Below the pieces are notes generated by a model. The model was given only the letters and a program-made list of their open reading frames with translations, did no database searches and had not been told where the DNA came from. From Natronorubrum tibetense GA33 (GTDB lineage Archaea; Halobacteriota; Halobacteria; Halobacteriales; Natrialbaceae): a stretch of DNA of 64,000 bases. The position numbers and the translations under genes were made by a program. The stretch is from positions 2,097,527-2,161,526 of the forward strand of contig NZ_KB913017.1 in NCBI RefSeq assembly GCF_000383975.1. The letters are read 5' to 3'. Of the stretch, positions 12,307 to 25,199 are shown piece after piece; the first letter of the stretch is position 1; every line of letters begins with the position of its first letter.

Positions 12307-13518
12307 ATGGTCGCTATCGGCTGGGGGTCGGTTACGGTGAGCAGCCTCGAGCACGATCACGGGGCGGACTGCGGCTGTCCGGACTGTGGCGATCCACGAT
12401 CGATGGACTTCCTCGATAAGTATCTCACCGTCTGGATTTTTCTCGCAATGGGAGTCGGCGTTGGCCTCGGCTACGTCGCGCCCGGAGTCGTCGACCCGAT
12501 CCAGGACTACTACCTCGTCGAGATCGGACTGATCGCAATGATGTACCCGCCGCTGGCGAAAGTCAACTACGGACAACTCCCGCGGGTGTTCAGCGCGTGG
12601 CGCGTGCTCAGTTTGAGTCTCATCCAGAACTGGCTCATCGGGCCGACGCTGATGTTCCTGCTGGCGGTGGTTTTCTTCAGCGGGCTCGTCCCACCGTTCC
12701 CGGCTCACCCCGAGTACTTTCTCGGGCTGATCTTCATCGGGATGGCTCGCTGCATCGCGATGGTGCTCGTCTGGAACGACCTCGCCGACGGCTCGAGTGA
12801 GTACGCTGCCGGCCTTGTCGCGTTCAACAGCGTCTTCCAGATCATCACCTACGGGGTGTATATCTGGTTCTTCGCGCTGTTCCTGCCGCCGCTTTTAGGG
12901 ATGGACGCGCTGGTTGCCGGCATCGGCACCTTCGACATCACCGTTACCCAGGTGTTCTGGGCGATCGCGATCTTCCTCGGGCTTCCGTTCGCCGGCGGGA
13001 TCCTCACTCGCCTGGGCGGCGTTCGAGCCAAGGGTGAGGAATGGTACGAAGAGGAGTTCGTTCCGACGATCAGCCCAGTCACGCTGATCGCGCTGCTTTT
13101 CACTGTGGTCGTGATGTTCGCCACGCAGGGTGAGAATATCCTCGTCCAGCCGACCGACGTCGTCTGGATCGCCGTGCCGCTGACGATTTACTTCGTCATC
13201 ATGTTCCTCGTGAGCTTCGCGATGGGCCGTGGCATCGGCGCGGACTACTCGACGACGACGGCTATCGGCTTCACCGCGGCGTCGAACAACTTCGAACTCG
13301 CGATCGCCGTCGCCGTCGCCGTCTTCGGCGTCGGCTCCGGTGTCGCGTTCGCGACCGTCATCGGCCCGCTGATCGAAGTACCGGTCCTGTTGGCGCTGGT
13401 CAACGTCGCCATCTACTTCCAGAGGAAGTTCGACTGGGCCGGCTACGAGACCGGCCAACTCGAGAGCACGAAGCCGACAACCAACGACGCGACGCCCTCG
13501 AAAACGGACGACGACTAA
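12307..13518 (+). CDS. acr3: ACR3-family arsenite efflux permease
   Basis: 403 residues with about ten membrane helices. The segment GMARCIAMVLVWNDLADG holds the Cys that is conserved in ACR3 transporters, and FTAASNNFELAIAVAVAVFG holds the conserved Glu of a later helix. The protein pumps As(III) out of the cell using the membrane potential. Ahead of the first helix is a short Cys/His-rich stretch, HDHGADCGCPDCGDPRSM, that could bind a metalloid before transfer. The exact start is uncertain: ATG at 12307 or GTG at 12337. It follows arsR and ridA, and a UspA gene begins six bases after its stop, so the two are probably co-transcribed. Confidence 0.93.
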   Translation: MVAIGWGSVTVSSLEHDHGADCGCPDCGDPRSMDFLDKYLTVWIFLAMGVGVGLGYVAPGVVDPIQDYYLVEIGLIAMMYPPLAKVNYGQLPRVFSAWRVLSLSLIQNWLIGPTLMFLLAVVFFSGLVPPFPAHPEYFLGLIFIGMARCIAMVLVWNDLADGSSEYAAGLVAFNSVFQIITYGVYIWFFALFLPPLLGMDALVAGIGTFDITVTQVFWAIAIFLGLPFAGGILTRLGGVRAKGEEWYEEEFVPTISPVTLIALLFTVVVMFATQGENILVQPTDVVWIAVPLTIYFVIMFLVSFAMGRGIGADYSTTTAIGFTAASNNFELAIAVAVAVFGVGSGVAFATVIGPLIEVPVLLALVNVAIYFQRKFDWAGYETGQLESTKPTTNDATPSKTDDD

Positions 13519-14585: not shown

Positions 14586-14963
14586 ATGACTTCGGACGAC
14601 AGCCAACGGAACGGGCCGGAGGGGTGTGAGTTGTCCATCGACGACGACACAATCGCCAGCGTAACGGACCGACCGCTCGAAACCCAAGTCGACCTGTTCT
14701 CGACGCTTGGCAACGAGACGCGGTACCGGATTCTACTCCTGCTCGCCGAAGCGGACGAGCCGGTCTGTGGCTGTGAAATCGAACCGCACCTCGACGTCGG
14801 CCAGAGCAGCATCAGCCAGTCTCTCTCTCGGCTCCGGAAAGCCGGACTGGTCTCGAGGACCAAAGACGGCCGTTGGCGATACTACGAACCGACGGAGATC
14901 GGTGAGACGCTCGCTGCACTTGTCGAATCGGACGTCGCCACGGAGCCGTTGATCGCTGACTGA
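14586..14963 (+). CDS. ArsR-family metalloid-responsive repressor (second copy)
   Basis: 125 residues. The helix-turn-helix covers about 38-100 (STLGNETRYRILLLL, VGQSSISQSLSRLRKAGLV, wing DGRWRYYEPT). PVCGCEIE near residue 60 is the Cys-x-Cys sensor motif of As(III)-type ArsR proteins. It is similar to the ArsR at 11298 in layout but clearly diverged, so the two may control different targets. A ttatgg element about 27 bases upstream supports a leaderless start. The molybdoenzyme operon starts about 260 bases downstream on the same strand and is the obvious candidate target. Confidence 0.88.
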   Translation: MTSDDSQRNGPEGCELSIDDDTIASVTDRPLETQVDLFSTLGNETRYRILLLLAEADEPVCGCEIEPHLDVGQSSISQSLSRLRKAGLVSRTKDGRWRYYEPTEIGETLAALVESDVATEPLIAD

Positions 14964-15170: not shown

Positions 15171-15227
15171 GGCCATGCCTGGGAGAGACATACTCAGCAG
15201 AGGGACGAACTGTGAGTGGTCCAGACC

Positions 15228-18047
15228 ATGAGCCTGGATATTACGGAAAAGGTGGGCAAGCCGGCGGATGGCGTCTCGAGACGCACGGTCCTGAAATCGA
15301 TCGGCCTCGCCGCCGCCGGGGCGGGTCTCGGCGGAACGTACTACTTTACAGATATCGGGAGCGCGGACGATCCGCTCGAGTACGATGTCGAGGAGGTATC
15401 GACCGCGTGCTGGATCGGCAAACAGGACTGTACGATGCGGGCGAAGGTCGTCAACGATCGCGTCGTCCAGCTCAGGCCGGATCCGAACGACGAGGTGATC
15501 GATGGACTCTGTCCGAAGGGCGTCTCGACGGTTGCGGACCTCTACGATCCGTACCGTATCAAACAGCCGCTCAAACGAGTCGACGGCGAGAAAGGCGAGG
15601 TCGGCGAGTTCGAGCCGATCTCCTGGGAGCAGGCTGCCGAAGAAATCGGCGAGGAACTCGCCCCGATGCTCGAGGACGATCCCCGTCGCGTCCACTTCCA
15701 GATCGGTCGCGTCAAAGGCGCGGAGTGGCACATGGACGGCTGGGTCGAAGCCCTCGAGGAGGAGTACGGCGAGGGGATCAACGTGCGCGGCCACGGAAAC
15801 GTCTGTGCGACGGGGAACAAGATGGCGCTCAGTCGAATGGGTGCCGGCTTCTCGTCGCCAGAACCGGACTTCCACAACACCGAGTTCTTCCTGAACTGGG
15901 GCTGGAACGCGACTCAGGCCGGTGGGCCACACCTGTGTAACACGACCTACTCCCGGGAGATGTCCGAGGGGTACGAAAACGGGATGGACATCGCCGTGCT
16001 CGACCCGCAGCGACGAGGGGCGGGCCAGTGGTGCGACGAGTGGCTGCCGATCGAACCCGGTACCGATCTTGCCTTTTTCCTCGCGTTCAATCACGTGCTT
16101 CTCGAGGAGGAGTACATCGACGAGTGGTTCCTCACGAACACCACGAACGCGCCGTGTCTCGTCTACACCGAGGGCGACAACGAGGGCGAGGTCGTCCGTG
16201 CGGCCGACGTCGATGACCTCGACGAAGAGTCGGAGGATCCGCTCGAGTCCGACGCGGCGATCCTCTGGACCGAAGGCGAGGTCGTCTACGACGAGGACGC
16301 CGACGAACTCACGGTTCACGAGGAGACCCTGCCGGACGATCCCCACGACCCGACGGCGGTGGGGACGGCCGCGCTGCGCGTCGATGACGACCTCGAGGTC
16401 GACGGCGACGAGGTCCGGCCGGCGTTCGAACTGTTCGCGGAGTCCGTCGCAGAGTACGATCCCGAGTGGGCGGCCGAAATCACCGACCTCCCCGCCGAGC
16501 AGATCCGACGCGTCGCCGAAAAATGGGGCGAAGAGGCCCGAATCGGCTCGACGACGACGGTCGAGGTAAACGGCGAGCGTCGCCAGGTTCCCTACCGCCC
16601 GGTTTCGATGTCGCTGTATCACGTCAGCCAGCAGGAACTGGGGCCGACCGCGATGCAAGCGGGGATGATGCCACTGTTCCTCGTCGGGGCCGTCGAGACG
16701 GTCGGAAGCAGCCGAACCGGCTACGTGAACGCGCCGGATCCGTCCTCCCGGGAACACGTTCGTGAGCGAGCGTTCGATCCCGAGGAGACGCTGACCTGGG
16801 AGCCCGATGCGCCGGATCTCGAGGGTACCTACTTCCATCCGGACGCGAACGGCTCCTACGCCAAGGTCCCTCACGTGCTGAACAACCCCGACGAGTACAA
16901 CCTCCCGCACGATCCGGAGGACATGGCCGTCGTCGTCTGTTATGCGAACCCGCTCGCGGGGGCGCCAAACCGAGAGCGGACACGAGAGGGCTACTCCCAG
17001 TACGGAACGGTCATCGCGGTCGATCCGGAGATGAGTGATACGGCGGCGTACACCGCCGACTACGTGTTGCCCACGACGACCGTCGACAAGTACGAGAACG
17101 CTAAAGACGGGATGAGCAACACCCACTACACGAGTTCGACGCGAACGGCCCCGATCCCGCAGTTGTGGGAGTGTCGCGACGAGGGAGACATCTTCAAGGA
17201 CCTCGCCGCTGCGCTCGACGTCGGCGACAACTACGTCGACTACGTCAACGAGGCGTTCGAACTCGAGGACGGCGACGCATTCGACGATGTCGACGAACTC
17301 ACGGTCGAGGAGTGTCTGGATCGGTCACCCAGGTACGGCGAAGAGTACCGCGAGGGTCCTCAAAGCGAGGAACGACCGCTCACCGAGCGCTACTGGGCGC
17401 TCATGCCCGAGTCCGACCATCTCGACGAGGACGTCCACCGGACCGAGTACAGCCCCTTCGGGTTCAAGTGGCAGTTCTACCTCGAGTCGTTCGAACTCCT
17501 CGGGGAGAACGTCCGCGAGGGCTTCGAGGACGAATACGGCGACGACCCCACCGAGCAGTTCCCGTACATACAGGACATCAACGGGTTCGCACAGTGGCGC
17601 GAGCCGACGATGTGGAACTCGCCCGACGAGTACGATCTGACGCTGTTCGACTACAAACAGATCGAACACAAGCAGTCCCGAACCGCACAGAACCCGCTTC
17701 TCAACGAACTCGCGCCGAACAACTACATCCGAATGAACTCGCGCGACGCAGCCGAGATCGGCGTCTCCGACGGCGACCGGGTCGTCGTCGAGAGCCACAA
17801 CGCGGTCACCGGCGACACCTACCAACTCGAGGGCGACCTGATGGTACTCGAGGGGATCAAACCCGGAACGATCGCAATCCCGTACGGCAACGACACCCAC
17901 ACGCAACACCCGAACGTCAAGGCGCTCGACGAGGGCGCGAATCCGAACGATCTCTTCGATTCGACGGAGGGGTACTGTTCGTGGTCGGCCGATCAGTCGT
18001 TCCATATCCGCGTCACCGTCGAGCCCGCCGGGGGTGATGGCGCATGA
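15228..18047 (+). CDS. Molybdopterin oxidoreductase catalytic subunit (DMSO-reductase superfamily)
   Basis: 939 residues from the ATG at 15228 (a GTG at 15216 is possible). A Tat signal (SRRTVLKSIGLAAAGAGLGG, about 17-36) places the enzyme outside the membrane. The N-terminal Fe-S motif reads Cys61-x2-Gly64-x3-Cys68-x26-Cys95 followed by PKG, so the usual second Cys is Gly. A GHGNVCATGNK segment offers Cys193 as possible Mo ligand. The C-terminus (about 800-939) has the molybdopterin-dinucleotide-binding fold (NSRDAAEIGVSDGDRVVVES). The following genes encode PsrB/NrfC-like and NrfD-like partners, so it is a membrane-attached respiratory complex. Arsenate, arsenite, or polysulfide/thiosulfate/tetrathionate are possible substrates; flanking ars genes favour arsenic but do not prove it. 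Confidence 0.88.
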   Translation: MSLDITEKVGKPADGVSRRTVLKSIGLAAAGAGLGGTYYFTDIGSADDPLEYDVEEVSTACWIGKQDCTMRAKVVNDRVVQLRPDPNDEVIDGLCPKGVSTVADLYDPYRIKQPLKRVDGEKGEVGEFEPISWEQAAEEIGEELAPMLEDDPRRVHFQIGRVKGAEWHMDGWVEALEEEYGEGINVRGHGNVCATGNKMALSRMGAGFSSPEPDFHNTEFFLNWGWNATQAGGPHLCNTTYSREMSEGYENGMDIAVLDPQRRGAGQWCDEWLPIEPGTDLAFFLAFNHVLLEEEYIDEWFLTNTTNAPCLVYTEGDNEGEVVRAADVDDLDEESEDPLESDAAILWTEGEVVYDEDADELTVHEETLPDDPHDPTAVGTAALRVDDDLEVDGDEVRPAFELFAESVAEYDPEWAAEITDLPAEQIRRVAEKWGEEARIGSTTTVEVNGERRQVPYRPVSMSLYHVSQQELGPTAMQAGMMPLFLVGAVETVGSSRTGYVNAPDPSSREHVRERAFDPEETLTWEPDAPDLEGTYFHPDANGSYAKVPHVLNNPDEYNLPHDPEDMAVVVCYANPLAGAPNRERTREGYSQYGTVIAVDPEMSDTAAYTADYVLPTTTVDKYENAKDGMSNTHYTSSTRTAPIPQLWECRDEGDIFKDLAAALDVGDNYVDYVNEAFELEDGDAFDDVDELTVEECLDRSPRYGEEYREGPQSEERPLTERYWALMPESDHLDEDVHRTEYSPFGFKWQFYLESFELLGENVREGFEDEYGDDPTEQFPYIQDINGFAQWREPTMWNSPDEYDLTLFDYKQIEHKQSRTAQNPLLNELAPNNYIRMNSRDAAEIGVSDGDRVVVESHNAVTGDTYQLEGDLMVLEGIKPGTIAIPYGNDTHTQHPNVKALDEGANPNDLFDSTEGYCSWSADQSFHIRVTVEPAGGDGA

Positions 18048-18907
18048 CCCAGATGGGGATGGCTATCGACTTAGAGCGCTGTCAGGGCTGTCGGGCCTGC
18101 GTACTGGCCTGCAAGACGGAAAACGACACGCCCCGCGGCGCGTTCTGGATGAACGTCTTCCGCCACGAGGAAGGCGAGTTCCCGGACGTAGACCAGGGCT
18201 TTACGCCGAACCCGTGTCATCACTGTTCGGAGCCGTCCTGTGCGGAGGTCTGTCCGACGACGGCCCGCTTCAAGCGGGAGTCGGACGGGATCGTCCTCAC
18301 GGATTACGACACCTGTATCGGCTGTCGGTACTGCGAGGTCGGCTGTCCGTACGGCGTCAACTACTTCCAGTGGCGTGACTCCCCGGAGGGACAGTACGGC
18401 TTCGCAACTGGCGACGAACTCGTCGACGAGGTCCATCAGAACCTACAGGAACTCGACGACGAGTTCGAGGGCAGCGATCGACCGTGGGCCGACCACAGCC
18501 TGAGCGAGACCCAGGAGCCACGCGGAAACAAGCTGGGCGGCGGCGACCACAAGGTCGGCACGATGGGCAAGTGTACGTTCTGTGTTCACCGACAGGACGG
18601 CGACGACGAGGAGCTCCGGGGGACGACCGCCTGCGAGGAAGTCTGTCCGACCAACGTCATTCACTTCGGAGATATGGAGGATCCGGAGAGCAAGCCCCGC
18701 CAGCACCTCGAGGCCAAGGGACGTACACAGCAGTGGAAGATGCTCAAAGAGACCGGCAACGAGCCGAACGTCGTCTATCTCGGCGATCAGCCGACCAGCG
18801 ACGCTCGAAACATGGAAGACGACTACAAGGATCCGGACGAGGCGATCGACGCCGAGACCGAGCGCGAACCCCAGTACCTCGCGGCCGACGGAGGTGAGAT
18901 CCAATGA
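18044..18907 (+). CDS. Four-cluster [4Fe-4S] electron-transfer subunit (NrfC/PsrB/DmsB type)
   Basis: 287 residues. Four ferredoxin-type Cys groups are visible: CQGCRACVLAC at about 13-23, CHHCSEPSCAEVC at about 58-70, CIGCRYCEVGC at about 91-101, and the split group CTFC plus CEEVC at about 175-210. This is the standard electron-wire subunit between a molybdoenzyme and its quinone-reactive membrane anchor. Its ATG overlaps the stop of the catalytic subunit by four bases and its stop overlaps the NrfD gene by four bases, so the three are translationally coupled. It lacks its own signal and would be exported with the Tat-targeted partner. The acidic insertion at about 118-165 and the C-terminal extension are halophile-like. 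Confidence 0.93.
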   Translation: MTQMGMAIDLERCQGCRACVLACKTENDTPRGAFWMNVFRHEEGEFPDVDQGFTPNPCHHCSEPSCAEVCPTTARFKRESDGIVLTDYDTCIGCRYCEVGCPYGVNYFQWRDSPEGQYGFATGDELVDEVHQNLQELDDEFEGSDRPWADHSLSETQEPRGNKLGGGDHKVGTMGKCTFCVHRQDGDDEELRGTTACEEVCPTNVIHFGDMEDPESKPRQHLEAKGRTQQWKMLKETGNEPNVVYLGDQPTSDARNMEDDYKDPDEAIDAETEREPQYLAADGGEIQ

Positions 18908-20265
18908 GTGCGATCGATGCGGATATCGAGCGACTCACGGAACCGCTCCGCGGAACCTCGACCAAGTTCTACGTCGCACTCGCCATTGCAGCGATCCTCT
19001 CGTTCGCGACGGCGGCCGCGTATTTCACCCAGCTCCGGTTCGGGATGGCCGTCACCGGCCTTCGCGGCTGGGGAACCCAGGGTGGCGTCCCGTGGGGGCT
19101 GTACATCGGGACGTTCATCTGGTGGATCGGGATCGCCCACGGCGGCGTTGCGATCTCCGCTGCAGTCAGGTTGTTCGATTTCGAGGAGTTCCTGCCGATC
19201 GCCCGAATCGCCGAAATCCTCACCCTGATCGCGCTCCCGATGGCAGCGACGAACATCCTGTTCGACATCGGCCGCCCCGACACGCTCTGGGTGATGATCG
19301 CCAACTGGCCCTCGACGGTCCAGAGTTCGCCGCTGACCTGGGATATGACGGCGACGTTCCTCTATTTCATTATGGCAGGAACGTACCTCATCATCACGCT
19401 GCGAAACGATATCTACGACTGTCGGCAACGCGATACGCTACCGTCGGCCTTTGAGCCACTCTACAAACTGTTGCTGGTCGGCTACCGACCCAGTGAGCGC
19501 GAAAAGACCCACCAGATGGCGTGGTGGATGGCGATCGGTATCCTGTTACTCGTCCCGTTGATGAGCGGTGGCGTGGTCCCGTGGCTGTTTGCAACGATGG
19601 GAATGCACCCCGGCTGGTTCGGTGCCTCCCACGGACCCGCGATGTTCGCGGAGTCGATGACCTCCGCCATCGCCGCCGTGGTGATCACTGCGGCCGTGTT
19701 CCGGTGGGCCTACGGCTGGGACGACGTGATCAGCGACGATATTTTCCGCGGCCTGAACAAGGCGCTGATCGTGCTCGTGCTTGTGACTCTGTGGTTCCTC
19801 GCTCAGAGTCTCGTCACCGGCTCCTACCCGGCTGCACCCGCCGACACAGGTCAGATCACCGAGTCGCTCGTGAGCGGCGGTATGGCGGTGCCGTTCTGGC
19901 TCTCCGTCGGCGGCCTGCTCATCGGACTGGGGTACTTCGTCGCGCAGGCGCTCCAACCGTCGCTGTTCAGCGTCGCAGCCTCGGTGGTCGCCGCCGTCCT
20001 CGTGACCACGGCGATCCTGCTGAAGAAGATCGTCTTCGTCGTCGAAGGGCTGCTTTACCCGACGCAAGAGCCACTCGCAAGTATGTTTACCGAAAACAGT
20101 TACTGGCCGACACTCACCGAATTGACGATGGCGTTCGGAACGATCGCCGTTGCCGTGCTCATCTTCCTCGTGGTCACGAAAATGATCCCGATCGTCGAAC
20201 TCGAGCACGCCAGAGCGCCACCTGATGAGACCGAAGACGCCGACGCGGAGGTGACCGACGCATGA
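18904..20265 (+). CDS. NrfD/PsrC-type quinone-reactive membrane subunit
   Basis: 453 residues with about ten hydrophobic helices. WGLYIGTFIWWIGIAHGGVAISAAVRLF near the second helix is typical of NrfD-family proteins (NrfD, PsrC, ActC), which exchange electrons with menaquinol and anchor the Fe-S and Mo subunits. Four-base overlaps on both sides (with the Fe-S gene and the following small membrane gene) show tight coupling. No heme-binding His pairs are obvious, as expected for this family. It completes a three-subunit respiratory complex; whether that complex oxidises or reduces its substrate cannot be read from this subunit. Confidence 0.92.
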   Translation: MSAIDADIERLTEPLRGTSTKFYVALAIAAILSFATAAAYFTQLRFGMAVTGLRGWGTQGGVPWGLYIGTFIWWIGIAHGGVAISAAVRLFDFEEFLPIARIAEILTLIALPMAATNILFDIGRPDTLWVMIANWPSTVQSSPLTWDMTATFLYFIMAGTYLIITLRNDIYDCRQRDTLPSAFEPLYKLLLVGYRPSEREKTHQMAWWMAIGILLLVPLMSGGVVPWLFATMGMHPGWFGASHGPAMFAESMTSAIAAVVITAAVFRWAYGWDDVISDDIFRGLNKALIVLVLVTLWFLAQSLVTGSYPAAPADTGQITESLVSGGMAVPFWLSVGGLLIGLGYFVAQALQPSLFSVAASVVAAVLVTTAILLKKIVFVVEGLLYPTQEPLASMFTENSYWPTLTELTMAFGTIAVAVLIFLVVTKMIPIVELEHARAPPDETEDADAEVTDA

Positions 20266-20565: not shown

Positions 20566-21195
20566 ATGAACCGAGACCCGCAGACAACTGAAGAGGCGGA
20601 CCTGACTGAGATCGGTGCGCTGCTGGCACCGGCCTACCGAACGCTCGGACAGCTCTACCTCGAGCCACCCGCGGAGCCAACGGTCGACGCGATCCGAACG
20701 TGGTGTGAACGAGTCACTGACGGATCGCTTCCACCGGACATAGAGGAGGCCGTCGATACCATCGGAACAGCCGAAACCGACCCCGATACCCTCCGGTCTG
20801 CGTTTACGAGACTGTTACAGGGCGTCAGCTACGGCGAGTCGACGCCGCCGCCGTACGAATCGATGTACGTCGACGAGATGCTCAACGGCCCGAGCACGAC
20901 CGAAGTCGAGGCGTTTTACTTCGAGATGGGAGTCGACCTCGCCGTCGAGGACGAACTGATCGATCACGCGGGTTACGAGCTGTCGTTCCTCGCCGAACTC
21001 TGTGAACGCGGCGACCGGGAGGCCCAACTCGGGTTCATCAGAACGCATCTCGGGGACTGGTTACCCGAATTTCACGAGGTCGCGATGGATGAACGCGGGG
21101 GCGGCGAGCCGCCGGCGTTCTACCGCGGCGTCTTCTCGCTGACCGAATCGCTGCTCGAGTTACACGCCGAAATGCTGGAGGAAGACGATGACTGA
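20566..21195 (+). CDS. TorD/DmsD-family chaperone for the molybdoenzyme
   Basis: 209 residues, all-helical and acidic. The segment around YGESTPPPYESMYVD (about 85-100) and the later HAGYELSFLAELC are typical of TorD-family redox enzyme maturation proteins, which hold the Tat signal of a molybdoenzyme and delay export until the cofactor is inserted. It sits about 110 bases after the small membrane gene and overlaps the next gene by eight bases. Its presence supports that the catalytic subunit at 15228 is a folded Tat substrate with an inserted Mo cofactor. Confidence 0.9.
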   Translation: MNRDPQTTEEADLTEIGALLAPAYRTLGQLYLEPPAEPTVDAIRTWCERVTDGSLPPDIEEAVDTIGTAETDPDTLRSAFTRLLQGVSYGESTPPPYESMYVDEMLNGPSTTEVEAFYFEMGVDLAVEDELIDHAGYELSFLAELCERGDREAQLGFIRTHLGDWLPEFHEVAMDERGGGEPPAFYRGVFSLTESLLELHAEMLEEDDD

Positions 21196-23299
21196 CGACG
21201 CCGATGTTGGCGCGTTCGTCTGCTCGTGTGCCGACACCTGCGACATCGACCTCGAGACGGCTCGCGAGCGGGTCGACGGCGTCTCGATGGCGGCGAGCTC
21301 CGATCTCCTCTGTGAGGGAGACACCGTCCGTGACGTCTGCAGCGTCGTCGAGGATCGCGACCTCGAGGAGCTCATCCTCACCTGTCCCGCCGCAGCGGGA
21401 CAGGAACGACTCGAGCGCATCGAACGGGAGACCGGGGCGACCGTCCACTTCGTCGACCAGCGCGAGGGGGCTGGCTGGGTCCACGACGAGCCGGCGGCCA
21501 CGGAGAAGACGGCACGGCTAGTCAACGCCGCCCGTGCGGGACTCGACGTCGGCAGCGAGCCCACCCCGATCGGCGAAACCGTCGGGCGATCCGTCGCCGT
21601 CGTCGGCGACGCACAACTGGCCGCCGCCATGCCGGAATCCGCCGAGGTCTCGCTGATCGCAGACGGACGGGAGTTCGACGACGTTAGTACCGATCTCTCG
21701 GACGTCCGATTCGAGCGCGGCCGCGTCCTCGATGTCTCGGGCTCGCTCGGGGAGATCGAAGTCACGCTCGAGGCGCGAGTTACAGAGGACTGTATCGACT
21801 GCATGGACTGCGTCCGCGTCGATCCCGATGACGTGGTCACGCGGACACCGATCGACATCAGTCCGGACGCCTCGGGCGGCGAGTGGACCGACGTCTGCCC
21901 GACCGATGCGATCGATCTCGAGGGCGTCCGGCGAACCGTTTCGTTCGACCAGGTCGTCCACCCGGGGGGCGAGGACAACACCCCCGGAGGAACCACCGGC
22001 TACCACACCGACGCCGATCTCGGGACGATCGCGGCCGTCAGCGACCTGCTAGAGCCCGATCGGTCGTCGTTCCTCGATCTCGAGATGGACGTCTGTGCCT
22101 CGGGTGACTCCGGACAGGAGGGGTGTCGGGCCTGTTACGACGCCTGTCCCCACGATGCGGTGTCGAAGCCCGCACCGCACGAAGTGGAGTTCGATCTTTC
22201 GGCCTGCCAGAACTGCGGGGCCTGTACGAGTTCCTGTCCAACCGGGGCGGTCGACCTCGCGGACCGATCCAACGAGCGGATCGCTCGCGAGGTCGAAGCG
22301 CTCGTCGACGAGGAACCGAGCGGGGGGCTGCTCGACTGGTCGTCGACGACCGCAATCGACCCGCAAGTCGTCGCGTTTGTCTGTTCGGAGCGGGCCGAGA
22401 CGGCGCTGTCGAGATACGGTCAGATGGCCGCAAGCGGCCGGGAAGACGTTTCCTACCCGCCGATCCTTCCCGTTCGCGTGAACTGTACCGACACGGTCGG
22501 GCAGGCCCACGTCCTGCACGCGCTCGCTGCCGGTGCCGACGGCGTGACGATCGTCGGCTGTGGCAACGACTGTGCGCACTCCGGTCCCGATCCGAAAGCC
22601 GAACTTGTCGAGCGGTTGAACGCCGCGACGACCGATCTCGGACTAGGCGAGCGCGTCAGGTTCCTCGCACCCAATTCCGAGACGTCTGGCGAGTTCGCCC
22701 ACTCGCTGTCGGCGTTCGTCGAGGAACTGACGGAAACGCCGATCCCGCCGGGCGAACACGAGGCTTCGGGGACGTCCCTCACCGCCGAGGACGACCTGCC
22801 CGCCTACGGCAACCGTGTTTGGTCCCTCGAGAGCATCCGGACGATCCTCGAGTACGTCGACCCCGGACGGGAGCGGATCCGCGGCCTCGAAAACTTCGGG
22901 ACGATGTCGGTCAGCGACGCCTGCGGCCTGACTCCGACCTGCGCGAACCTCTGTCCGACCGGCGCGATCCGCCGGGAGGACGGCGAGGGAACGCTCGAGT
23001 TCAGCCACGAGCGGTGCGTCGACTGCGGGCTCTGTGAGACCGGCTGTCCCGAGAGCGCGATCACGATGGAGACGGGCCTCGACATCGAACTCTTGCCGGA
23101 GGAAAACGGCGGCGACGCCTGGACGACCGTCCACGAAGCGGAGCTGTTCGAGTGTCGAAGCTGTGGCGCGGTCGTCGCCAGCGTCTCGACCGTCGAGGAC
23201 CTGAAAGCCCAACTTCCGGACGGGCAGATGGACGGCGTCGAGGGCCACATGGCGGAGTACTGTAGCGACTGTAAGGGCGATCTTGCGTTCAAATTATGA
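21188..23299 (+). CDS. HdrA/MvhD-like multi-cluster iron-sulfur protein
   Basis: 703 residues with an unusual order. Residues 1-120 match the HdrA N-terminal domain (VGAFVCSCADTCDIDLE, later GWVHDEPAATEKTARLVNAA). The FAD domain expected next is reduced to about 65 residues without a clear GxGxxG. Then come ferredoxin groups at Cys202/205/208, 303-320 and 340-350, and an MvhD/FlpD domain at about 393-495 (AFVCS, VNCTDT, GADGVTIVGCGNDCAHSG). Two more Fe-S groups follow (579-589 and 610-620) and a CxxC...CxxC zinc-ribbon-like end (656-695). No signal peptide, so cytoplasmic. It could pass electrons between a soluble carrier and the complex, or help maturation. Known HdrA/MvhD proteins work in heterodisulfide and sulfur metabolism. 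Confidence 0.85.
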   Translation: MTDDADVGAFVCSCADTCDIDLETARERVDGVSMAASSDLLCEGDTVRDVCSVVEDRDLEELILTCPAAAGQERLERIERETGATVHFVDQREGAGWVHDEPAATEKTARLVNAARAGLDVGSEPTPIGETVGRSVAVVGDAQLAAAMPESAEVSLIADGREFDDVSTDLSDVRFERGRVLDVSGSLGEIEVTLEARVTEDCIDCMDCVRVDPDDVVTRTPIDISPDASGGEWTDVCPTDAIDLEGVRRTVSFDQVVHPGGEDNTPGGTTGYHTDADLGTIAAVSDLLEPDRSSFLDLEMDVCASGDSGQEGCRACYDACPHDAVSKPAPHEVEFDLSACQNCGACTSSCPTGAVDLADRSNERIAREVEALVDEEPSGGLLDWSSTTAIDPQVVAFVCSERAETALSRYGQMAASGREDVSYPPILPVRVNCTDTVGQAHVLHALAAGADGVTIVGCGNDCAHSGPDPKAELVERLNAATTDLGLGERVRFLAPNSETSGEFAHSLSAFVEELTETPIPPGEHEASGTSLTAEDDLPAYGNRVWSLESIRTILEYVDPGRERIRGLENFGTMSVSDACGLTPTCANLCPTGAIRREDGEGTLEFSHERCVDCGLCETGCPESAITMETGLDIELLPEENGGDAWTTVHEAELFECRSCGAVVASVSTVEDLKAQLPDGQMDGVEGHMAEYCSDCKGDLAFKL

Positions 23300-23384
23300 A
23301 CACGACCGACTCGACGACACGACTCACGACGGACCGACCGATGGCCGACAACCGACCGAGAAATCTTCCCGGGGTGACACGACC

Positions 23385-24668
23385 ATGACCGTCACCGAAT
23401 CACGGCTTCGCGAGCGACTCCGAGACGTCGAGGACCCTGCTCTCGGTATCGACATCGTCTCGTTGGGGCTGGTCACCGACCTCCGCATCGACGACGGCGT
23501 CGCCGAGATCACCCTCGCGTTCAACGCGCCCTACGCGACCGACGAGATGGAGATGGGTGACCGAATCCGAGAGGTCGCCGCCGACCTCGGCCTCGAGACC
23601 AGACTATCCGTGACCGTTCCTCAGCGCGATTCCGCGAACCCGCTTCCCGGTGTGCGAAACGTTATCGCCGTCTCCTCCGGGAAGGGTGGCGTCGGCAAGA
23701 CGACCGTCGCGACGAACCTCGCGGCCGGACTCGCCGACGAGGGAGCACGTGTCGGCCTGCTCGACGGCGACATTTACGGCCCAAACGTCCCGAAGATGAT
23801 CGGGATCGACGGCGAACCGGGGATGACCGACGACGGGAGCCTGGTACCGCCGGAGGCCTACGGCGTGAAGGTGATCAGCATGGCATTTCTGACTCGAGAC
23901 GGCGACGATCCGGCCGTGTTGCGGGGGCCGATGGTCGACAAGATCCTCATCCGACTCATCGAGGACGTCGAGTGGGGCCGGCTCGATTACCTCGTGGTCG
24001 ATCTCCCGCCGGGGACCGGCGACGCCCAGCTCACGCTGGTTCAGACGCTGCCGGTGGCCGGCTCCGTCGTCGTAACGACGCCCGAAGACGTCGCCCTCGA
24101 CGACGTCCGAAAGGGGATCGAGATGTTCCGGAACCACGACACGCCCGTCCTCGGAATCGCCGAGAACATGAGTGCGTACCACTGTCCTGACTGCGGCGGC
24201 GAACACGCCCTGTTCGGCAGCGGCGGCGGCCGAGAGGTCGCCGAGACGTACGGCGTCCCGCTGCTCGAGGAGATTCCGATGAACCCCGAAATCAGGACCC
24301 GGAGCGATGACGGCGCCCCGGTCGTCTGTTGGGATACCGATGCTTCGGAGCCGTTCGAGGCCCTCGTCGAGTCGGTCGCCAACCGGGTCGGAGCGGTCAA
24401 TCGGGCCGCCGTCGCCGGTATCGATCCTGACGATCCCGATCCCGACGATCTCTCGACGCCGGCGAGCTACGGCGGGCTCGAGAACGAGGCCGGGACCGAC
24501 TCGACGACTGATCCCGACGGGACATCAGCCGAGGCCGACCCGGACATCTCGGTCGACGGCGACGCGTCGAGCGCCGAGACGACGAACGCGGACGAACGGG
24601 ACACTGAGGACGATTCGGATGGAGCGGAACCTTCACTCGGCGGGCTGGACGTCTCCGATCGCGGCTAG
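23385..24668 (+). CDS. Mrp/NBP35-type P-loop ATPase with MIP18 domain
   Basis: 427 residues from the ATG at 23385. Residues 1-85 form a MIP18/DUF59 domain (DPALGIDIVSLGLV). Residues 95-335 form the Mrp ATPase with the deviant Walker A SSGKGGVGKTT, the DGDIYGPNVPKM motif, VVDLPPGTGDAQLT and a late HCPDCGG Cys pair for a bridging Fe-S cluster. These proteins carry and deliver Fe-S clusters. The last 85 residues are an acidic low-complexity tail that is longer than usual. The gene follows the HdrA/MvhD-like gene by 85 bases, which suggests that it loads the unusually many clusters of this operon. Confidence 0.9.
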   Translation: MTVTESRLRERLRDVEDPALGIDIVSLGLVTDLRIDDGVAEITLAFNAPYATDEMEMGDRIREVAADLGLETRLSVTVPQRDSANPLPGVRNVIAVSSGKGGVGKTTVATNLAAGLADEGARVGLLDGDIYGPNVPKMIGIDGEPGMTDDGSLVPPEAYGVKVISMAFLTRDGDDPAVLRGPMVDKILIRLIEDVEWGRLDYLVVDLPPGTGDAQLTLVQTLPVAGSVVVTTPEDVALDDVRKGIEMFRNHDTPVLGIAENMSAYHCPDCGGEHALFGSGGGREVAETYGVPLLEEIPMNPEIRTRSDDGAPVVCWDTDASEPFEALVESVANRVGAVNRAAVAGIDPDDPDPDDLSTPASYGGLENEAGTDSTTDPDGTSAEADPDISVDGDASSAETTNADERDTEDDSDGAEPSLGGLDVSDRG

Positions 24669-24771: not shown

Positions 24772-25199
24772 TTACGGTGTAGGCTTCCGCGTCGACTCGA
24801 GTTCGTCGAACAACTCGCACACTCGAGTCTCGATCTCGTCGCGGACCTCGCGCACCGTCTCGTGATCGCTTCCGTGTGGGTCCTCGAGCCCCGGTCGCGG
24901 TTCTCGCCGCTCCAGGTCGCCGGACAGACCCACTCGGCCGAACAGCCCATCGTCACGACGTACTCGCAGTCTTGCAGTTCCTTCTGGGTGATCTCACGGG
25001 GTGTCCGATCCCCGAGGTCGATCTCACGCGCGGCCATGACATTGACGACTTCTTCGTGGACCCGCTCGGCTGGCTGTATACCGCCGGTTACGACGGTGAT
25101 CGTATCCTCGAGATTCCGGTTTGCGCGTTCGCGTTCGCCGAAGGCAGCAGCCATCTGACTTCGTTCAGCGTGCTGGACGCAGACAAACGCGACGTTCAT
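24772..25199 (-). pseudogene. arsC: Arsenate reductase ArsC (LMW phosphatase type), frameshifted
   Basis: From the ATG at 25199 the minus strand encodes MNVAFVCVQHAERSQMAAAF, the CX5R P-loop of thioredoxin-type arsenate reductases, then EYVVTMGCSAEWVCPATWSGENRD with the two further Cys residues. Just after GENRD (near 24885) the reading frame moves: the expected LEDPHGSDHETVREVRDEI and CELFDELE end continues in another frame to a TAA at 24772-24774. The total length of 428 bases is one base short of 143 codons, so a single-base deletion explains it. All catalytic residues precede the break, so a truncated product with a wrong tail could still be made. A sequencing error is the main alternative. 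Confidence 0.85.

Follow-up and report, generated by a model that had tools for sequence, protein, structure and literature searches.

A flavin-less HdrA-MvhD fusion protein genetically linked to exported molybdoenzymes in haloarchaea

Here we describe a family of iron-sulfur proteins that join an HdrA N-terminal domain to an MvhD/FlpD domain, have lost the FAD motif of HdrA, carry no recognisable TAT signal and are genetically linked to exported molybdoenzymes. The member from which the analysis started, for which we coined the name HdrM, is a 703-residue FAD-less HdrA-MvhD fusion encoded at positions 21188-23299 of the window, that is, the whole 64,000-nucleotide stretch of Natronorubrum tibetense GA33 DNA under analysis (NZ_KB913017.1, 2,097,527 to 2,161,526). 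Judged by its sequence, HdrM descends from HdrA-MvhD. Because its flavin site is lost and its gene adjoins those of exported molybdenum enzymes, HdrM probably assists these enzymes or feeds them electrons instead of splitting electrons itself, and we favour, with moderate confidence, the reading that it is a cytoplasmic redox or Fe-S accessory factor for the maturation of an exported complex iron-sulfur molybdoenzyme.

Table 1. Features of HdrM and of the operon that encodes it (window coordinates).
Feature	Position	Strand	Details
ArsR/SmtB-type regulator, upstream of operon	14586..14963	+	also upstream in L032, L033, L035 and N. bangense
Molybdopterin oxidoreductase catalytic subunit	15216..18047	+	TAT signal SRRTVLK; candidate Mo-ligand Cys in NVCATGN
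Fe-S subunit (DmsB/ArrB-like)	18044..18907	+	library matches
NrfD/PsrC membrane anchor subunit	18904..20265	+	library matches; orthologue carries same annotation
TorD-family chaperone	20566..21195	+	overlaps HdrM start by 8 bases
HdrM, FAD-less HdrA-MvhD fusion (whole gene)	21188..23299	+	703 aa; ORF intact
HdrM HdrA N-terminal domain	21200..21550	+	residues 5-121; hhalign E 1.2e-15; alignments; PDB profile match
HdrM collapsed first half of FAD domain	21581..21781	+	residues 132-198; alignments, hhalign, predicted structure
HdrM remnant of HdrA's inserted ferredoxin	21782..21907	+	residues 199-240; one CxxCxxC...CP cluster motif (C202, C205, C208, C237)
HdrM remnant of HdrA ~310-366	21908..22063	+	residues 241-292; profile alignment
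HdrM C-terminal HdrA ferredoxin	22085..22258	+	residues 300-357; two 4Fe-4S motifs; all eight Cys invariant
HdrM MvhD/FlpD domain	22367..22735	+	residues 394-516; C399, C433, C458, C462; Pfam, structure match, PDB profile match
HdrM extra ferredoxin pair	22910..23071	+	residues 575-628; Thr582 for one Cys in first cluster motif
HdrM CxxC...CxxC end	23153..23272	+	C656, C659, C692, C695; region matches formate hydrogenlyase subunit 6 (HycF)
Mrp/ApbC Fe-S carrier ATPase	23283..24668	+	true start may be further downstream

The domain order that the initial annotation had read from the letters, with an HdrA N-terminal domain, a shrunken stretch, three ferredoxin motifs, MvhD, a ferredoxin pair and a CxxC...CxxC end, was confirmed by Pfam, profile comparisons and the cysteine map (Table 1). 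The HdrA ancestry it had assumed was also supported. The N-terminal domain went unreported in single-sequence library searches, Pfam included, and was recovered by hhalign using a profile of 26 haloarchaeal relatives (residues 5-121 against HdrA 6-128, E = 1.2e-15). Residues 5-290 proved colinear with HdrA 6-366 along one path (E = 1.7e-21), residues ~309-510 matched HdrA 586-759, comprising the C-terminal ferredoxin and MvhD-like tail (E = 5.3e-21), and the family profile matched solved HdrA chains in the PDB with E values of 8.5e-30 to 6.9e-35. The MvhD/FlpD assignment rests on a Pfam match to residues 394-516 (E = 8.4e-20, 71.4 bits against a gathering score of 22.3) and on retention of the four cysteines of the domain, which may bind a [2Fe-2S] cluster; HdrM is the sole FlpD detected in its genome. 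Pfam additionally reported ferredoxin domains at ~312-355 and 584-625 and no flavin or FAD family, while positions 546-679 of the profile matched HycF 22-160 (E = 1.7e-16). HdrM scored below the NCBIfam curated cut-off for HdrA2 (113 bits versus 1100), and its operon holds no HdrBC partner genes.

Alignment with 12 archaeal HdrA sequences places VAVVGDAQLAAAM of HdrM where HdrA has VLVIGGGIAGI; the glycine-rich motif now reads VGDAQLAAA, and GxGxxG is gone. In the profile alignment, ~50 residues have been cut from the first half of the FAD domain (around HdrA 165-215), and HdrA 367-585, ~219 residues of the same domain, is absent altogether, a total loss of ~270 residues. The invariant lysine of the HdrA ALKHA motif falls within the missing segment, and the HdrA stretch TQMELARL is aligned to GTIAAVSDLL. 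This lysine is probably the FAD-tuning K409 described previously, and the lysine and the TQMELARL stretch together would correspond to K409/E356 (PMC12054007); HdrM lacks this conserved Glu/Lys pair.

An AlphaFold2 model built from 36 sequences (mean pLDDT 85.4, pTM 0.83) has HdrA chains and MvhD as its top structural matches, and shows residues 120-200 as a single short beta-alpha-beta unit with strands after it. When residues 122-300 were modelled separately (pLDDT 81.6), HdrA was the best structural match and thioredoxin-reductase-like flavoproteins were weak ones. In place of the thioredoxin-reductase-type FAD-binding domain with GxGxxG that typifies HdrA, HdrM thus has a mini-fold only. 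Since the predicted structure retains this miniature beta-alpha-beta remnant, the FAD domain is better described as shrunken and motif-less than as simply absent, and, since its fold has HdrA as best match and thioredoxin-reductase-type flavoproteins as weak ones, we read residues 132-198 as a miniaturised FAD-domain remnant rather than an unrelated linker. The initial proposal that the FAD domain is missing stands as regards the lost GxGxxG, the lack of a Pfam flavin domain and the two deletions, but has to be amended for a small folded, HdrA-like remnant that persists. Given the lost motif, the lack of a Pfam flavin domain and the two large deletions, the HdrM chain probably does not carry out flavin-based electron bifurcation.

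Relatives of HdrM, counted as strong matches, occur in 90 of the 293 sampled Halobacteriales genomes (~30%) and fall into three well supported clades. Clade A (56-85% identity to window HdrM) lies within the window-type operon, clade B (about 51-59%) adjoins a formate-dehydrogenase-like gene, and clade C is about 30% identical; bacterial relatives in SAR324, Tectimicrobiota, Myxococcota and Proteobacteria share 23-29% identity. The architecture was initially taken to be non-standard, and our searches indeed found no function-assigned family that shares it; however, rather than being peculiar to one gene, it defines a conserved family with members in ~30% of the haloarchaea sampled as well as in several phyla of bacteria. 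Searching the literature for a function turned up generic mentions only.

Window HdrM has N-domain cysteines at 12, 14, 18, 42 and 66; the invariant fifth cysteine of the HdrA N-domain (REQCSWVH) is replaced (REGAGWVH), and the other invariant cysteines are matched. The remaining cysteines form groups at 202/205/208/237, 303/313/316/320, 340/343/346/350, 399/433/458/462 (MvhD), 579/585/589, 610/613/616/620 and 656/659...692/695. All 36 homologues, bacteria included, keep the two groups between 303 and 350, and all 36 also keep every listed cysteine from 579 to 695. Where the fourth cysteine of the 579/585/589 group would be expected stands T582, a position occupied by Thr in clades A and B and by Cys in clade C and the aligned bacteria. 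Clade C has lost most N-domain cysteines and all MvhD cysteines. One genome (G223) has an N-terminally truncated copy (L034:9245-11122) with Mrp downstream and the molybdoenzyme genes missing, as if the operon had been severed by rearrangement.

Of 85 genomes with an FdhA-type enzyme, 84 also have HdrM (hypergeometric p about 6e-65, kinship ignored). HdrM is also present in six genomes that lack such an enzyme, of which five have a window-type one. By the coordinates of the genome matches, 88 of the 90 HdrM genes lie less than 10 kb from a gene for a TAT-exported molybdopterin enzyme of FdhA or window type, with a median gap of 261 bp; at 73 of these 88 loci the two genes are on opposite strands. 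The catalytic subunit in the window has a TAT signal, and FdhA-type subunits start with TAT-like motifs. TorD was present in 26 of 30 HdrM flanks, some of them short, genes for Mrp, MobA and YqeC recur nearby, and an AOR-family protein is encoded close by at 20 of 30 loci. Clade-B HdrM genes are usually transcribed away from an FdhA gene that has a TAT-like start, and are followed by TorD; these loci also carry an FDH3-like Fe-S subunit and a cytochrome b. At one of them (L040:3102-4916), as at similar clade-B loci, the aldehyde-ferredoxin-oxidoreductase family protein is encoded near formate dehydrogenase, beside a DUF7124 gene; the L040 protein apparently misses its Fe-S-cluster Cys motif.

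HdrM is not needed universally, because it is missing from one genome (G010) that has TorD and both enzymes, and from five that encode window-type enzymes (44-48% identical). No simple rule emerged for a link with oxygen, in which HdrM would be lost from genomes without a haem-copper oxidase: G010, in which no such oxidase was found, lacks HdrM, three other oxidase-less genomes retain a reduced form of the protein, and this reduced form is also present in oxidase-bearing genomes.

In the window, the gene order is ArsR, molybdopterin subunit with TAT signal, Fe-S subunit, NrfD, TorD, HdrM and Mrp, an arrangement shared by a Natronorubrum bangense plasmid and five further genomes, though some members are missing at some loci. 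ACR3 and arsC lie on either side of the operon, and arsD, arsA and halo-CC-star genes lie downstream of it on the plasmid (L166). These flanking genes suggest an arsenic substrate or sensor, and a published survey mentions a Psr-like operon of haloarchaea that has arsenite-resistance genes on its flanks (PMC6176080). Assignment of the partner enzyme as arsenate reductase, arsenite oxidase or thiosulfate reductase was rejected, arsenic genes notwithstanding, as it missed every NCBIfam curated cut-off (PhsA, 198.5 of 694; ArrA, 115 of 1600; AioA, 16 of 359). The ACR3 arsenite exporter gene (12307-13518), like that of ArsR (14586-14963), is close to the operon, and at another locus (L154) ACR3 is downstream of an operon with a 44% identical enzyme. 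The ArsC-like arsenate reductase gene (25202 to about 24790, minus strand) changes frame near 24893, its last 30-odd residues lying in another frame through a frameshift or sequencing error.

Bacterial homologues belong to formate dehydrogenase loci, whose other genes encode FdhA, FdhD, DUF3305/DUF3306 proteins, a TorD-type chaperone and a 'formate dehydrogenase region TAT target' resembling TIGR02811, although not all of these are present at every locus. This DUF3305/DUF3306 setting has been noticed, unexplained (PMC4464133), and NCBIfam contains a MobA-DUF3305 model. In a gammaproteobacterium (L090:7125-9224), the HdrM Fe-S core carries a portion of a DUF3306 domain fused at its N-terminus. 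Homology, a TorD-type chaperone and a TAT-exported molybdoenzyme as neighbours together place HdrM with these formate dehydrogenase-associated fer4 proteins.

We propose that an HdrA-MvhD fusion shed its flavin site to become a cytoplasmic multi-cluster protein, which would act ahead of TAT export, alongside TorD and with Mrp and the Mo-cofactor enzymes, and may supply electrons or aid the loading of Fe-S and Mo centres into catalytic subunits. That it resides in the cytoplasm, touches the enzyme and takes part in maturation is what we infer. We favour a role in assembly or reductive activation because TorD, Mrp, MobA and YqeC, and in bacteria FdhD and DUF3305, are encoded nearby, and NapF, HydN and FdhE offer precedents for Fe-S or iron proteins that serve molybdoenzymes as cytoplasmic accessories (PMC10609526, PMC6004506). 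Against an accessory factor count G010 and the five genomes that manage without HdrM, the potential clusters, which outnumber what a scaffold would seem to need, and the fact that the best-conserved part of HdrM is a canonical electron-transfer ferredoxin. More tentatively, the whole unnamed class of flavin-less HdrA-MvhD proteins, in haloarchaea and several bacterial phyla, could be a dedicated redox-active assembly factor for TAT-exported molybdenum or tungsten enzymes, which formate dehydrogenases and an arsenic-linked oxidoreductase would each have recruited independently.

The main rival is the 'pure electron wire' of the initial annotation, which is possible but not favoured. HdrM would then carry electrons within the cytoplasm from a low-potential donor, be it ferredoxin or another, to a soluble or membrane partner; MvhD would serve as docking or two-electron module and the two ferredoxin pairs as relays. 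The ferredoxin motifs that are invariant across 36 homologues would fit such a role, as would the docking and relay duties of MvhD and HycF-like parts in known complexes and the proximity, at 20 of 30 loci, of an AOR-family protein, whose family is ferredoxin-linked. We nevertheless consider it rather unlikely: the constant partner is exported beyond the membrane with a cytochrome b or NrfD anchor, cytoplasmic dehydrogenases are not among the constant partners, some clades lose the MvhD and N-domain cysteines yet keep the gene linked, and the clade-B AOR-like protein of L040 is without the expected cluster cysteines. Maturation is preferred to a pure wire because the constant partners are a TAT-exported molybdoenzyme, the TorD chaperone and cofactor-assembly genes.

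If HdrM were instead an additional structural subunit, it would have to hitchhike through TAT together with the molybdoenzyme. Multi-subunit hitchhiking is documented (PMC4273604), and it probably operates in the window system, because no export signal was seen on the Fe-S subunit itself; but the HdrM gene follows the chaperone gene or diverges from that of the enzyme, outside the subunit genes, and the opposite strands at 73 of 88 loci also make co-export improbable. Even less credit can be given to the idea that HdrM bifurcates electrons with a flavin or nucleotide still bound by the remnant, the site perhaps being completed by a partner. The modelled fold is HdrA-like and weakly resembles thioredoxin-reductase-type flavoproteins, but the glycine-rich motif has become VGDAQLAAA and ~270 residues are gone, including the region of the invariant ALKHA lysine. 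That HdrM is a functionless, decaying HdrA-MvhD remnant is hardly credible, for although MvhD or N-domain cysteines are lost in some clades, and the G223 copy is truncated and its enzyme missing, the reading frames are intact in nearly all genomes, cysteines are invariant across bacteria and archaea, and the neighbourhood is conserved.

Discussion of HdrA centres on flavin-based electron bifurcation. In HdrM, the HdrA scaffold outlives the flavin site with cluster motifs conserved, and is tied to a different job in non-methanogens. Described helpers specific to molybdoenzyme maturation are mostly chaperones, plus a sulfurtransferase, and HdrM, if an assembly factor, would add a redox component. 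NCBI gives HdrM-type proteins the generic name 'hydrogenase iron-sulfur subunit', which is misleading: their neighbours are molybdoenzyme genes and not hydrogenase genes, and the molybdoenzyme association corrects the name. In the literature searched, we found no description of a FAD-less HdrA-MvhD with this C-terminal extension and molybdoenzyme partnership, and HdrM and its enzyme gene form a pair that can be tested in culturable genera such as Haloarcula, in which H. vallismortis, for example, has the clade-B HdrM gene beside fdhA.

Among known systems, HdrA type Ia of methanogens (an HdrA-MvhD fusion, e.g. HdrA2) has an N-domain, FAD-domain region, ferredoxin and MvhD in an order colinear with HdrM. 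HdrM differs in its collapsed FAD domain, in an inserted ferredoxin reduced to one cluster motif, in its extra C-terminal ferredoxin pair and CxxC...CxxC end, and in an operon without HdrBC. QmoB, also a fusion of HdrA-like and MvhD-like parts, is believed to retain FAD. HdrA variants and HdrA-MvhD fusions are already known (PMC11237513, PMC12054007), and 28 HdrA classes have been defined in methane metabolisers from a core region selected to surround the FAD residues (PMC12054007). NapF, HydN and FdhE resemble HdrM, as proposed here, in being cytoplasmic molybdoenzyme helpers, some of them for exported enzymes, and the CxxC...CxxC end recalls the paired CxxC motifs known from the literature on FdhE; they are, however, much smaller and not HdrA-derived, so that the analogy would be functional only. 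The bacterial fer4 '4Fe-4S binding protein' of formate dehydrogenase loci, by comparison, is homologous to HdrM over about 400-690 residues at 23-29% identity and shares its core Fe-S motifs, TorD-type chaperone and an exported partner, in this case FdhA, through TAT. Some fer4 members, unlike window HdrM, are without the N-domain, or without the MvhD cysteines, and DUF3305/DUF3306, present at several bacterial loci, were not seen on inspection of the haloarchaeal loci examined.
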